Source: a virus
DNA: 44,602 nt
Direction: 5' to 3' (one strand)
Virus record (IMG/VR): IMGVR_UViG_3300042922_000861
Location: 1 to 44,602 of that record
Shown here: piece after piece, positions 14,719 through 42,264 of the stretch
Layout of the letters: the number at the start of each line of letters is the position of its first letter
Position numbering within the stretch: position 1 is the first letter of the stretch
Program-made: the position numbers and the translations under genes
Notes under the pieces: generated by a model
Told to the model about the DNA's origin: nothing
Databases searched by the model: none
What the model saw: only the letters and a program-made list of their open reading frames with translations

Positions 14719-15405
14719 TTATCTAGGTTCCATTTGTTCAACTTCTTTTGTTTCAAGCAACATTGAAACCCAGTGTACCGTCAGCCTAATCAAGCGTTTT
14801 AAATCATTGATATCTTTATCATCAAATTTTTGGACATAGTGTGTTTGATCATTACCTAACCATGTAGCTCGGGAAGCAGCAATTTTTAGCTGGTCGTTAT
14901 CAATCTTGTCGCTTATACATTTACCAAGAGGCAACTTCTCTATCTCTTCCTGCTCGGCAGGATAAGTTTTAATTAAGTAATCTTTAATAAGGAACTCAAT
15001 AGCTTTTCTATATCCAATTCCAGCAATCTGATCTAGGTAATAACTTTCGGCTGCTGAAGCTTGATTAAATATTTCAACGAAAGCCGGAGATATATTTGTT
15101 ATGTAGTCATCAAAATTTGATTTAATATATTCATTTGGTGCAACATAATATGGTTCGTTACCTGCAAAAGTATTATTAGAAGGGGTGTATACAATTTTAT
15201 AATTAGCGAGAAAGCTGTGATTACATCCCCTACATAATAAATGTGATTCCATATTAAAATTATTAGTTGTTACAAAATAATACATAGAGCTTAAATGTAC
15301 AGGTTTTATTGATTTTTTACAAATAGGACACTGACTAACTTCCTCAACACTTATTTTTACAACAGAAGAAGCTTCAATGTTTTTAGCATCATAACTAACT
15401 CGCAT
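14719..15405 (-). CDS. DUF4145-domain protein with N-terminal zinc ribbon
   Basis: This 228-aa cytosolic protein has an N-terminal zinc ribbon (CPICKK near residue 31, CRGC near residue 58) and a DUF4145-type helical domain (about 110-220; GIGYRKAIEFLIKDYLI is the signature). DUF4145 occurs alone or fused to restriction enzymes and is often linked to defence, though its activity is unclear. AAAGGATG precedes ATG. It is divergent from the next gene and probably transcribed in the lysogen. A superinfection-exclusion role is inference. Confidence 0.75.
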   Translation of the reverse strand: MRVSYDAKNIEASSVVKISVEEVSQCPICKKSIKPVHLSSMYYFVTTNNFNMESHLLCRGCNHSFLANYKIVYTPSNNTFAGNEPYYVAPNEYIKSNFDDYITNISPAFVEIFNQASAAESYYLDQIAGIGYRKAIEFLIKDYLIKTYPAEQEEIEKLPLGKCISDKIDNDQLKIAASRATWLGNDQTHYVQKFDDKDINDLKRLIRLTVHWVSMLLETKEVEQMEPR

Positions 15406-16196: not shown

Positions 16197-16350
16197 CGAT
16201 CCAGAACACTGTGCGGTATGTGGTAAACAGATTACTTTTACCGGAGGAATGAGCAGGGTAAATTATCATTACAAGATATCTCACAAGGGTAAGACAAAAT
16301 ACTTCTGCGGATATGGACACTTACAGGCAGGGAAAATGAGAGGTGATTAA
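16123..16350 (+). CDS. Small zinc-finger protein overlapping the HTH gene
   Basis: This frame overlaps the end of the previous gene by 74 bases. The convincing part is after the overlap: CAVCGKQITFTGG, then YHYKISHKGKTKYFCGYGH, a C2...H/C zinc-finger-like pattern common in small phage proteins. ATG 16123 is the only start in frame and has no clear ribosome site, so it may depend on reinitiation or a frameshift from the preceding gene. Its stop lies inside the start region of the next gene. Confidence 0.55.
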   Translation: MDLSVRAKSSRRSSRKKRSVPRKPSDPEHCAVCGKQITFTGGMSRVNYHYKISHKGKTKYFCGYGHLQAGKMRGD

Positions 16351-16783
16351 TCTGACAGAGAATGAGTTAAGTCAATACCGTAAATTGAAGTGTGAGATAT
16401 CGGACTTGGAGGATCGGATAAACAAGCTTTTGGATAAAGAGCTTGCAACCTGCCACAGCAAAGTTAGCGGATCATCTAAACACTTCCCGTACATTGAATT
16501 TCATATGGATGTGGTGATCGAGGATCCTGGTGAAGTTTCTGATCGGGATCAGCTGATAGATTTGTACCGTAGAAGGCAGTCGGCAGCCAGGGCAGCTGTC
16601 CTGCAGATAGAGAGGTTTATCAGTGAAATTCCGGAAAGCGAGTTGAGGATGATATTCCAATACCGATACATAGATGGTAAGAAATTGAGAGAAATCGGAG
16701 AGTTGATGAATAGTGATCGGAGCGTCATTGGGAAAAGAATTAACAGATTTTTAAATTTGCCCCCATTTCCCCAAAATCTCTGA
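16343..16783 (+). CDS. ArpU/RinA-like late transcription regulator (sigma-70 region 4 type)
   Basis: This 146-aa protein has an N-terminal coiled coil and a C-terminal sigma-4-like HTH: SELRMIFQYRYIDGKKLREIGELMNSDRSVIGKRINRF. Proteins of this size and place (ArpU, RinA, DUF1492) switch on the late operon in Firmicutes phages. The first start is GTG 16343, but AGGTGAT (16341-16347) is spaced for CTG 16352, as in the DUF927 gene. The cargo island separates it from its probable target, the terminase promoter. Confidence 0.78.
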   Translation: MINLTENELSQYRKLKCEISDLEDRINKLLDKELATCHSKVSGSSKHFPYIEFHMDVVIEDPGEVSDRDQLIDLYRRRQSAARAAVLQIERFISEIPESELRMIFQYRYIDGKKLREIGELMNSDRSVIGKRINRFLNLPPFPQNL

Positions 16784-17511: not shown

Positions 17512-17567
17512 TAAAGAGAACATCAAGAACCATTAATTTCAATAAGGGGCATATATTATTGTATTTA

Positions 17568-17596
17568 TTGCAAATGCTGTTAAAATGTGGTAGTAC
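17568..17596 (+). promoter_or_regulatory. Repeated cargo promoter, copy 1
   Basis: TTGCAA, a 17-bp spacer and TAGTAC, with an extended -10 TG, lie in a conserved block that continues TTGGGTAAAAGGGG. The same block occurs at 17897 and 19974 before other cargo genes. This copy serves the 77-aa zinc protein. Confidence 0.7.
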
Positions 17597-17619
17597 TTGG
17601 GTAAAAGGGGAATTGCTTA

Positions 17620-17862: not shown

Positions 17863-17884
17863 GCATCATTCGAGGTGCTTTTCT
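17863..17884 (+). terminator. Cargo terminator (GCATC/GGTGC)
   Basis: GCATC (17863-17867) pairs with GGTGC (17874-17878) across a 6-nt loop and is followed by TTTTCTT. Related GCATCC...GGGTGCTTTTCTC terminators close the next units. Confidence 0.6.
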
Positions 17885-17896
17885 TGTAACCTCCTA

Positions 17897-17925
17897 TTGC
17901 AAATACTGTCAGAAAGTGGTAGTAT
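17897..17925 (+). promoter_or_regulatory. Repeated cargo promoter, copy 2
   Basis: TTGCAA (17897-17902), a 17-bp spacer and TAGTAT (17920-17925), with TGG before the -10. The surrounding block CTCCTATTGCAAAT...GTGGTAGTATTTGGGT is almost identical to copy 3. Confidence 0.72.
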
Positions 17926-17950
17926 TTGGGTGAAAGGAGAGTGATAACGC

Positions 17951-18268: not shown

Positions 18269-18292
18269 AAAAGCATCCATGGGGGTGCTTTT
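18269..18292 (+). terminator. Cargo terminator (GCATCC-atgg-GGGTGC)
   Basis: The stem GCATCC (18273-18278)/GGGTGC (18283-18288) is flanked by an A-run before and TTTTCT after. It isolates the 97-aa gene from the following operon. Confidence 0.75.
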
Positions 18293-18334: not shown

Positions 18335-18363
18335 TTGATATTAGAACAAATGTTCTATATAAT
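18335..18363 (+). promoter_or_regulatory. Promoter with embedded LexA-like box
   Basis: TTGATA (18335-18340), a 17-bp spacer and TATAAT (18358-18363). The spacer is filled by TAGAACA-AA-TGTTCTA (18342-18357), whose core GAAC-AAAT-GTTC fits the Firmicutes LexA/DinR pattern GAAC-N4-GTTC. A repressor there would cover the promoter, so the two-gene operon downstream is probably induced by DNA damage. Confidence 0.75.
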
Positions 18364-18471
18364 AAGTTTACCAGATAATAGCATGAAATGTCATATTTTA
18401 CCCTTTATATTGAAGAATATTTCAAGTTGATGTATAATGATGGAAATTACTTTATACCAAGGAGGGAAAAT

Positions 18472-19362
18472 ATGCAAAGAACAGTGTATGCATATGATTT
18501 GAAATTTAATGCTTCAAAAAATTCGAAGGCAAAGAAAGTAAAATCATATGAAGAAGATCTAGGTTCTATATTGAGTGCAGTAAAGGGTAGAGCTAAAGGA
18601 AAAAAATCAATGGATTTTAAAGACTCAAAAAAAATTCTTTACCTTGATGATTATGCATATGATAGTAGTAAATGCTTGTTTAAATTAATTTTTATCTCAG
18701 CAAAATATGCTACTCGAAGAAAAGTCATTAATACTATTACATTTGCTGATAGAGGAATATTAAAAGAAAAACCTGATGGTGATGTGGAAAAAAATCATGT
18801 TTTAATTAGATTTAACGAAAATAATAGAGCGGTAGCTTTATATGAGAGCAATAGGGATGGAATAAGCTTTCCTAAAATTATGGCTTATATAGAAGAATAT
18901 ATTGAGAAAGCTCATAAGAAAAAACATGAAGTAGTATTATATAAAATTCGTCACGAAAACATTGTTTCAAGAGACTTCTTAAAGGCATTAGAAAAAGTTA
19001 AAAGGATAAAGGCTGTTACCTTAACAGTTGATCAAGAGGAGGTCGGAGTATCCGATTATAAGCGCTTTTCTGGAAGAAATGATATATCTAATGATGTAGA
19101 CATTGTATTAAAGCCAGCGGCAAAGGGAGCCAGTATTTTTGGTGATACTGTACAGGAATTCTATAATATGTATAAAAACCAATCAATGCCAATTAAGCGA
19201 ATTACAATTGACGGAGATAGGGAAAATAAAAATCCATTAACATTTGATACTGAAAAAATGAAAGAAAAGAACACGATTAATGTGCAGGAAGAGTTTATAA
19301 CAGGAGAAGCAGACACGAAGGATATGTTTGCGCAATTGGAAGACTTGTTAAAATATTATTAG
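18472..19362 (+). CDS. Soluble cargo protein of a two-gene operon (candidate exclusion protein A)
   Basis: This 296-aa soluble protein is rich in lysine, with a two-domain look: about 1-110 (YAYDLKFNASKNSKAKK...) and 115-296 (LIRFNENNRAVALYESN, GISFPKIMAYIEEY). I do not recognise the family. The frame opens at 18388, but AAGGAGG at 18460-18466 selects ATG 18472, about 110 bp after the promoter. The soluble plus four-TM pair recalls lambda RexA-RexB and Kiwa KwaA-KwaB in layout only. It has low GC relative to neighbours and lies behind a LexA-like box. Confidence 0.7.
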   Translation: MQRTVYAYDLKFNASKNSKAKKVKSYEEDLGSILSAVKGRAKGKKSMDFKDSKKILYLDDYAYDSSKCLFKLIFISAKYATRRKVINTITFADRGILKEKPDGDVEKNHVLIRFNENNRAVALYESNRDGISFPKIMAYIEEYIEKAHKKKHEVVLYKIRHENIVSRDFLKALEKVKRIKAVTLTVDQEEVGVSDYKRFSGRNDISNDVDIVLKPAAKGASIFGDTVQEFYNMYKNQSMPIKRITIDGDRENKNPLTFDTEKMKEKNTINVQEEFITGEADTKDMFAQLEDLLKYY

Positions 19363-19378
19363 AATTAGGAGTGATAAA

Positions 19379-19933
19379 ATGAAGAAATCCATCAAGGAAA
19401 TATTCAATCCGGTATCTGACTTTTATTCGATGAGGCATAGACGTAAAAACGAAGCTATATTTTTTGTGATCTGCCCGATATTAGTTGCTGGATCTTTCTT
19501 GGTGTTAGATCATTTTTTAAAAGCAACACGAAGCTTTGAGTTAGACTCCTTTGTTAATGATATTATTAATCAACTTATAACTGTACTGGCTTTATTTGTA
19601 AGTTTTAGTTTAGCTTATTTATCCATCATAACAACCAGCAGTAGTAAGAATGTTGACGGATTGAAAGAAACTCCTTCAAGTGTTTATATTTTAAATGGCA
19701 GTAATGAGTATTGTTCACTGTATCAAGTTTTAGTATCAGAAATAACTTACACATTATTTTTTGATATCTTTTTCTTGTTTTTAGTTTTTATTGAAAAATT
19801 CGTTATTTATGTTAGTAACGATACTATCATAAAGTATATTATTGCGACTGATATTGCATTATTTACACATGTTCTTATATTGATGTTAGTATCTATAAAA
19901 AATATTTACTTCTCATTTTGGAGATCGGAATAG
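19379..19933 (+). CDS. Four-segment membrane protein of the two-gene operon (candidate exclusion protein B)
   Basis: This 184-aa protein has about four hydrophobic segments: FFVICPILVAGSFLVLDHFL, LITVLALFVSFSLAYLSIIT, a third around residues 122-142 (FFDIFFLFLVFIEKF) and a fourth near 152-173 (IATDIALFTHVLILMLVSI). The N-terminus is basic, so it is probably cytoplasmic. It starts 16 bp after its partner, with TTAGGAG, and is followed by a terminator; the two genes therefore form a closed operon. Membrane partners of phage-exclusion systems have similar size and topology. Confidence 0.7.
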   Translation: MKKSIKEIFNPVSDFYSMRHRRKNEAIFFVICPILVAGSFLVLDHFLKATRSFELDSFVNDIINQLITVLALFVSFSLAYLSIITTSSSKNVDGLKETPSSVYILNGSNEYCSLYQVLVSEITYTLFFDIFFLFLVFIEKFVIYVSNDTIIKYIIATDIALFTHVLILMLVSIKNIYFSFWRSE

Positions 19934-19938
19934 ATTAG

Positions 19939-19961
19939 AGCATCCTTCGGGGTGCTTTTCT
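19939..19961 (+). terminator. Cargo terminator with UUCG loop
   Basis: GCATCC (19940-19945), loop TTCG, GGGTGC (19950-19955), then TTTTC. It closes the two-gene operon. Confidence 0.85.
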
Positions 19962-19973
19962 CATATCCTCCTA

Positions 19974-20002
19974 TTGCAAATTCTGTAAAATAGTGGTAGT
20001 AT
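19974..20002 (+). promoter_or_regulatory. Repeated cargo promoter, copy 3
   Basis: TTGCAA (19974-19979), a 17-bp spacer and TAGTAT (19997-20002), within the same conserved block as at 17897. It drives the 133-aa gene. Confidence 0.72.
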
Positions 20003-20024
20003 TTGGGTAAAAGGGGGTGCTGAA

Positions 20025-20426
20025 ATGAGCAGTAATGAGATGATTATCACAATTGTTGCGGCTTTATTATCTGGAGTTGTAGCAACTATAGTTAGTAATA
20101 TCTATTACACTAACCAAAGAATGAAACAGAAAAGAATTGATTTACTAGATGATATCTTTGGGTACAGATATCAAATGACCGACAGTTATTCTGGTGCGGC
20201 AAACGATATAATTCGAGCTATTAATCGAATACCTATAGTTTACGCAAAAAGCAAAGATGTAATGAGTGCATTCAATGAATATAATCAGTCTGTTATTAGT
20301 GGAACTCAGGTAGATGATAAGTTAATTACGCTGTACAAGAAAATGTGTTTCGATGCAAAAATAGACAGTAATGGATGGAATGATAGTTATATAAAGAGCG
20401 TAATCTTATCAAAGAACTTAAAATAG
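20025..20426 (+). CDS. N-terminally anchored cargo protein (DUF6680-like)
   Basis: This 133-aa protein has one N-terminal TM segment (IIITIVAALLSGVVATIVSNIY) followed by a basic stretch, placing the rest in the cytoplasm. The cytosolic helical part (RIDLLDDIFGYRYQMTD, SAFNEYNQS) is reminiscent of DUF6680-type proteins; this is a weak resemblance. AAGGGGGTG lies before ATG. The unit has its own promoter and terminator. Confidence 0.6.
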   Translation: MSSNEMIITIVAALLSGVVATIVSNIYYTNQRMKQKRIDLLDDIFGYRYQMTDSYSGAANDIIRAINRIPIVYAKSKDVMSAFNEYNQSVISGTQVDDKLITLYKKMCFDAKIDSNGWNDSYIKSVILSKNLK

Positions 20427-41072: not shown

Positions 41073-42059
41073 CTATTCTCCTACCATGCCATCACCGTCA
41101 CGGTCATCCATGTATTGGTATAGCCAATGATCCGAGTAGATTGGCATTTTATATCCGGCAGATTTCGCTTCAGCTATCGTCACCTTGCCATTTCCATTTG
41201 TGTCAACTCTTGAGAGATCATTCTTTTCCTTGACAACATCATTTTTATTATCTTTGTTAGGAGTCTGTGTTGGGGCCTGCGTTATGGATGCGTTGACTTC
41301 ATCAGGGTTTACATTCTCAAATTCATCAACGATCTTATTCCCTTTAAGCACATATTCGTATTTATATTTGGAGGGTATCTGTTTATCGGTATCAGAATAA
41401 GTAATTGTTGCTACAAAAGACTCACAACCTCCAGCATCACGAATTATCTTTTCCGTATAGGCCTGGTCGCCGTATCGGTTTAGTGTACTATCTTGTGGAG
41501 TGATATTATATGCGTTTGATACACCTCCAAGTGCATCCGCAATAACATGACCTTCGTCTAAATCTTCTTGTTCAACTCCCGGCACTTTTGCCTCATCATC
41601 ATAGTATCTACCATTAGAATTAACTGGTTCAGTGCTATCATCTTGAAGAATAATTTCATCCGCAATTACATAAACAAGTTGACCATATTTATTGGTTAAT
41701 GCCCAATATTCACGATCTTCAAATCCAATATCCACAGCAACATTAGGCTGCCTGTCGCCTGATAAATCACCACCATCAACTTCGATAATTTTATAAGCGT
41801 TCCCTGCATAGTCTAAGGTTGAATTGTGGCTACCGTCGCTCTTAGCTGGCTTTTTGGTTGAATCCTTGGTGGGAGCAATTGTCGGGGTTACATCCTTTGG
41901 TGACACCGTTATGGCTTCGGTCGGTGACTCAGTGATTGTTGACGTTACTGTTACAGCATTATTATTTGGCTTGTTACTAGGCACATTCTGTGTACACGCA
42001 ATTAATGTAAAAACCAATATAAATATGACAAAAGCACCTGTTATTTTTTTATTTCTCAA
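41073..42059 (-). CDS. Secreted lipoprotein DNA/RNA non-specific endonuclease with Excalibur domain
   Basis: This 328-aa precursor has a lipoprotein signal ending FTLIAC (lipidated Cys22), a threonine-rich linker, a NUC1/EndA-like nuclease domain (about 90-255) with the catalytic DEGHVIADALGG (168-179), and a C-terminal Excalibur calcium-binding end (DTNGNGKVTIAEA, DDRDGDGMVGE). It should degrade DNA outside the cell. GGAGATGAGG selects TTG 42059; the frame is open to 42167. Leftward, self-promoted, next to attR, it is a likely lysogenic-conversion gene. Confidence 0.9.
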   Translation of the reverse strand: MRNKKITGAFVIFILVFTLIACTQNVPSNKPNNNAVTVTSTITESPTEAITVSPKDVTPTIAPTKDSTKKPAKSDGSHNSTLDYAGNAYKIIEVDGGDLSGDRQPNVAVDIGFEDREYWALTNKYGQLVYVIADEIILQDDSTEPVNSNGRYYDDEAKVPGVEQEDLDEGHVIADALGGVSNAYNITPQDSTLNRYGDQAYTEKIIRDAGGCESFVATITYSDTDKQIPSKYKYEYVLKGNKIVDEFENVNPDEVNASITQAPTQTPNKDNKNDVVKEKNDLSRVDTNGNGKVTIAEAKSAGYKMPIYSDHWLYQYMDDRDGDGMVGE

Positions 42060-42095
42060 TTCCTCATCTCCTTTGTAATATAATATCATGAAAAT

Positions 42096-42124
42096 ATTAT
42101 GTTGAGTATGGAGGATAATGTCAA
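42096..42124 (-). promoter_or_regulatory. Promoter of the nuclease gene
   Basis: On the minus strand TTGACA (42124-42119), a 17-bp spacer and CATAAT (42101-42096), 11 of 12 consensus positions, stand 36 bp before the TTG start. Confidence 0.8.
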
Positions 42125-42264
42125 CATTTATCCAATTGACCGTGTATGATGTAAGGCCTCTTTCCACCAGTCAACAGCTGGGTTATTTTAGTATTTTTCA
42201 CCATGAAATTCTCTATTTAATAATTGGATTATACTAACAATAGCATAATATTTAAAAAAGAATA

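Follow-up and report, generated by a model that had tools for sequence, protein, structure and literature searches.

Few puzzles of phage defence are as old as Rex exclusion. RexAB-like systems described so far number five, by the authors' count (PMC12894663). For RexA of phage lambda, the crystal structure shows a closed conformation, next to which an open one has been proposed; RdgC, Iml3 and Chl4 were reported as structural relatives, and the protein was described as stabilising the lytic state and potentiating prophage induction (PMC11077077). Here we analyzed a 44.6-kb virus record (IMGVR_UViG_3300042922_000861, 44,602 nucleotides, the whole of which we refer to as the window) with a prophage-like gene set: integrase, CI-like repressor, Cro-like regulator, replication genes, late regulator, terminase and structural genes, several of these names having been read from translations. 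We conclude that the window is a prophage of a gut bacterium that carries a far-diverged relative of the lambda RexA/RexB genes. At 2582-2942 and 1540-2037 are operator-like TGTCCAAAAYGGACA sites around the CI/Cro region and an ImmA-like M78 protease gene that adjoins the repressor gene. Near the end of the element, a minus-strand gene (41073-42167) encodes a 364-aa predicted secreted lipoprotein that appears, by reading of its translation, to be like non-specific nucleases.

The two genes form a self-contained unit at 18335-19958, composed of a promoter, a gene for a soluble protein, a gene for a membrane protein and a terminator with a UUCG loop. An earlier, sequence-only reading had proposed exactly such a closed unit, with a soluble protein of 296 aa and a membrane protein of four segments, lying in AT-rich DNA between the late regulator and the terminase, and our analysis agrees with it. 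The GC content of the unit is 29.5% vs 40.1% for the whole window, and the unit lies between a sigma-like late regulator on one side (16343-16783; phrog_36) and the terminase region on the other (from 20501), with further small gene cassettes separating it from both. Terminators flank the unit on both sides. The upstream intrinsic terminator, which insulates it, is found at 18269-18292 on the plus strand (AAAAGCAUCC-AUGG-GGGUGCUUUU, -12.5 kcal/mol, z -2.8), and the downstream one, with the UUCG loop, at 19937-19958 on the same strand (GCAUCC-UUCG-GGGUGC-UUUU, -14.2 kcal/mol, z -4.3). A 45-bp leader, whose copies are 84-89% identical, precedes three unrelated small genes (17566-17610, 17895-17939 and 19972-20016), and terminators of a similar form, GCATCC..GGGTGCTTTT, occur at 17863, 18272 and 19940. 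From these leaders and terminators, we read the RexAB unit as sitting within a row of cassette-like accessory genes. Directly 3' of the unit, positions 20025-20426 encode a small protein with a hydrophobic N-terminus and a match to DUF6680 (E 2.8e-10).

The first gene of the pair (18472-19362, plus strand) encodes a 296-aa RexA-like protein matching phrog_4672 (E 1.6e-23). Its start at 18472 is backed by a ribosome-binding site (AGGAGGG, 18460-18466, plus strand) and by the family alignment, which gives no support to the upstream start at 18388 taken from the mechanical ORF list. An AlphaFold model of the protein, built with 11 family members as input (pLDDT 82.2, pTM 0.77), was compared with the PDB using Foldseek. 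The top two matches were the chains of lambda RexA (8TWQ; E 1.8e-6 and 4.0e-6), aligned at full length over about 276 columns; the next match had an E of 0.012, and no other PDB entry fell below E 0.001. In a VIA comparison, which is a re-examination of Foldseek's own matches, RexA again came first (Z 10.5 over 220 residues, overall rmsd 15), ahead of Iml3 (8.1), CENP-N (7.2) and RdgC (6.7). These three belong to the same fold group as RexA, and the large rmsd may reflect a different orientation of the two domains in the model. The predicted model thus has the two-domain fold of RexA. The homologue in Roseburia phage Jekyll is also named RexA-like in its record, by annotation.

At the sequence level the likeness is much fainter. 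The window proteins matched no RexA or RexB sequence model in Pfam, PADLOC or PHROGs, and had no valuable match in Pfam, NCBIfam, PADLOC or the PDB sequences. Searches of the PDB sequences with the single protein and with a 13-member profile returned nothing, so that the RexA link comes from the fold only, and a profile comparison of the family with lambda RexA (sequence from record J02459.1) was weak (P 0.024). The remote-homology check suggested with the sequence-only reading therefore divides: RexA is recovered by fold (E 1.8e-6), and the RexA and RexB sequence models miss the window pair. That reading had also recognised neither family and had considered a possible new system; the RexA fold instead makes the pair RexAB-type, and its guess of an exclusion-type pair is sustained by the modelled structure. 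Weak library matches to TrmB, FTZ, Cmr5 and MnmE were taken as chance. Up to E 5, no Kiwa model matched in a search that had no KwaA/KwaB control, and the best fold match was RexA.

The second gene begins 16 bases after the first (19379-19933, plus strand) and encodes a RexB-like membrane protein of 184 aa that matches phrog_4613 (E 2.4e-8). It has four predicted hydrophobic membrane segments, as does lambda RexB, and RexAB-type pairs likewise have such a four-segment protein encoded next to the soluble one. Among the relatives, 13 membrane proteins were counted with four segments, two of them having five. In one relative (L030), a stretch of 32 residues matches the PADLOC RexB model (E 1.6e-4); the window protein has no such match. 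The profile comparison with lambda RexB (P 0.051) was weaker than that with RexA, and fold searches of the membrane protein found generic helical bundles only, with no support for RexB. ORAI was rejected as a relative of the membrane protein, its Z of 8.3 being in the usual range for helical proteins. The RexB identity is accordingly less well backed than the RexA identity.

Both PHROG families are without an assigned function. Relatives of the pair were found in the Anaerostipes phages AC844P1-P3, Roseburia phage Jekyll, the Clostridioides difficile phage phiCDKH02, IMG/VR contigs and a few genomes. The family is rare: it was present in 3/397, 3/391 and 4/392 genomes in three draws, each of which included the seed genome, and scans of viral contigs gave no further relatives. 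Wherever the sequence of a relative extends far enough, the soluble gene has the membrane gene directly behind it, so the co-occurrence that had been proposed as a check holds. Four chromosomal copies lie directly behind restriction-modification genes. In L062 (genome G105) and L064 (G854) the pair comes after type III mod and res genes, and in L065 (G499) after a type IIG enzyme with its specificity subunit. In L063 (G274) the gene directly upstream of the pair is cut by the contig end and is similar to the end of the L062 res gene, as read rather than scanned. AbiEi/AbiEii genes were found near the pair in L062 and a PDC-S02 nuclease in L063, and the PADLOC candidate PDC-M53A was matched by three distant family members (E 3e-6 to 1.3e-4). 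By guilt by association, the restriction-modification neighbours may point to a role in defence.

Upstream of the pair we predicted two promoters. The distal one, P1 (18335-18363, plus strand, TTGATA-17-TATAAT), agrees with the consensus at 11/12 positions, its hexamers at 18335-18340 and 18358-18363 being separated by a spacer of 17 nt. The spacer is filled by GAACAAATGTTC (18344-18355), in the middle of a perfect palindrome of 16 bp, TAGAACAAATGTTCTA (18342-18357), with a GAAC-N4-GTTC core. A GAAC-N4-GTTC/T operator overlapping a promoter is characteristic of the LexA regulon of Bacillota, and the one here, already noted from the letters, is the single exact box in the 44.6-kb window. With up to one mismatch there are 13 such sites in the window, which is the level expected by chance, so that the exact match alone carries information. 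The proximal promoter, P2 (18410-18438, plus strand, TTGAAG-17-TATAAT, 10/12 positions), was absent from the sequence-only reading and lies outside the box. A TATAAT 20-60 nt 5' of the start codon is present in 8/15 loci (shuffled mean 1.1, maximum 5). Since this proximal element is outside the box and is kept in 8/15 loci, basal expression of the pair in the lysogen appears likely, which makes the earlier supposition that a quiet lysogen keeps the pair off doubtful and probably wrong. The promoter arrangement suggests that DNA damage would boost the pair through the LexA box, on top of the basal promoter.

The RexA fold predicted for the soluble protein places the pair in the exclusion type, and we consider it probable that it is a prophage-borne RexAB-type exclusion (abortive-infection) module with basal and SOS-boosted expression. 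For this system we infer that LexA binds and the promoters are active, and likewise DNA binding, exclusion and damage to the membrane. By analogy with RexAB of lambda, CarolAnn, Sbash and P. putida (PMC12894663, PMC6426606, PMC6426596), the RexA-like protein would form a dimer, bind DNA and sense the replication or recombination structures of an invading phage, or a phage protein. It would then switch on the RexB-like four-helix protein, which would permeabilise the membrane and stop growth before the invader multiplies. As a basal layer, P2 would arm the lysogen; as a second layer, host LexA bound in the P1 spacer would block P1 until SOS, triggered by DNA damage or infection, adds expression. 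The box may raise both proteins upon damage, including infection, or it may serve prophage induction.

The latter leads to the best-surviving alternative, which we nevertheless regard as unlikely: that the pair tunes its own prophage switch, the LexA-induced RexA-like protein acting on regulatory DNA or on the repressor to keep the prophage committed to lysis once induced, with exclusion as a side effect. Lambda RexA does potentiate induction and stabilise the lytic state (PMC11077077), and the LexA box would raise the RexA-like protein as induction starts. Moreover, the ImmA-like protease adjoins the repressor gene, so that the repressor may lack the self-cleavage response to SOS of the lambda CI type. 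However, no prophage switch is evident around the chromosomal relatives behind restriction-modification genes, the membrane gene is always retained, and RexAB of P. putida left the expression of the neighbouring repressor gene unchanged (PMC12894663). More tentatively, and again with rather low probability, the module could have a double role, in which the basal level guards the lysogen while upon damage RexA pushes lytic growth and RexB shuts out competitors. If true, such a module in clostridial prophages would unite both of the roles proposed for lambda Rex.

The proposed SOS boost would depend on the box being read by LexA, and the relatives bear on this. In 7/15 loci, an exact GAAC-N4-GTTC lies no more than 250 bp upstream of the pair, with about 0.03 (0.027) expected from base composition. 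Counting near relatives once on the tree, the box-bearing lineages are five: the window, L027, AC844P2/L010, L003/Jekyll and L042. The corresponding Poisson value (2e-15) treats loci as independent and thus overstates the case; even so, five lineages greatly exceed what chance would give. The boxes in L003 and Jekyll are at -176 and -188, with diverged flanks and different distances, and between AC844P2 and L010 the arms of the box are conserved while the spacer letters are not. In three Lachnospiraceae genomes, GAAC-N4-GTTC precedes recA and GAAC-N4-GTTT precedes lexA; a screen for LexA sites in C. difficile used GAACnnnnGTTC/T (PMC4234289). The operator-like sites near the CI gene are of a form unlike the LexA box. 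Given the recurrence of the box, the boxes at host recA and lexA and the different sites at the CI gene, the likely reader is host LexA. The box, first noticed in the window only, recurs in other phages too. The genome of AC844P2 (L048) has two more exact boxes, at 14968-14979 and 16535-16546, near regulator genes, a placement that suggests more LexA-controlled genes in this phage.

Some prophage copies have the box, but the family as a whole does not. It is absent within 250 bp in 8/15 loci, including the C. difficile copies and two loci close to the window protein (L002 and L009); the sole exact box of L009 is at -273. There was no exact box in 420 bp upstream in L002, L022, a C. difficile copy and L041, nor over the same distance in the restriction-linked copies L029, L030 and L033, nor in 330 bp upstream in L059. 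This absence, together with the P2-like TATAAT kept in as many loci, is what one would expect if the palindrome had arisen by chance or were not one for LexA, and the pair were ordinary accessory genes expressed from P2 only. We find this quite improbable, as against it stand the five lineages with the exact box where about 0.03 occurrences were expected over 15 loci, the arms conserved though the spacers vary, and the same box at host recA. Least probable of all is a damage-induced growth arrest, in which SOS raises the membrane protein and depolarises the damaged cell with or without a second phage: the box, the four-segment protein and the growth halt caused by P. putida RexB upon RexA overexpression without infection (PMC12894663) would fit it, but arrest at induction would oppose the prophage's own lytic growth, and the chromosomal relatives adjoin phage-defence genes and are without the box.

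RexAB is thus a known kind of system. What is new, as far as we searched, is a Bacillota branch with a predicted RexA fold, the recurring LexA operator in the prophage copies, and the restriction-linked chromosomal copies. We found no report of an SOS-controlled phage RexAB in the open-licence literature; the RexAB of the Staphylococcus aureus SOS papers we take to be a repair enzyme of the AddAB type and distinct from phage Rex. The LexA box provides a direct test of whether the role of Rex is exclusion, the lytic switch or both, and the restriction-linked copies raise the question of whether DNA that has been cut or processed elicits a response from RexA-like sensors.

Among described systems, the window pair shares with lambda RexA/RexB the RexA fold over nearly the full length, the order of a soluble gene followed immediately by a four-segment membrane gene, and a temperate phage as carrier. 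It differs in that structure alignments have 10-14% identity and in that the window proteins have no match to PF15969 or PF15968, which the lambda controls do match. CarolAnn gp44 and gp43 also fail these two models, so the window pair is outside the narrow lambda family only. While lambda rex is co-transcribed with cI, the window pair is away from the CI gene and has its own promoters and a LexA box. RexAB of P. putida prophage P1 (PP_5643-5644) is likewise a distant RexA-like protein by fold with a four-segment membrane partner, but it sits in the operon of a CI-like repressor; SOS goes unmentioned in that text, and the two mentions of LexA found are both in a cited reference (PMC12894663). 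The PADLOC candidate PDC-M53 differs in that its PDC-M53A model is unmatched by the window protein.

Sbash gp30/gp31 and CarolAnn gp44/gp43 are also pairs of a RexA-like protein and a four-segment membrane protein, and the Sbash pair has its own promoter, like the window pair (PMC6426606). Both pairs are expressed in lysogens, with no LexA box reported in the parts of their descriptions that we cover; our family had no detectable sequence similarity to the CarolAnn pair, and the profile comparison was negative. The pairs of Jekyll and AC844P1-P3 are direct homologues of both genes at 34-48% identity. The Jekyll pair differs in its location behind the endolysin, and its RexA-like name is an annotation; upstream of the pair, Jekyll and AC844P2 have a LexA-type box, as the window does.
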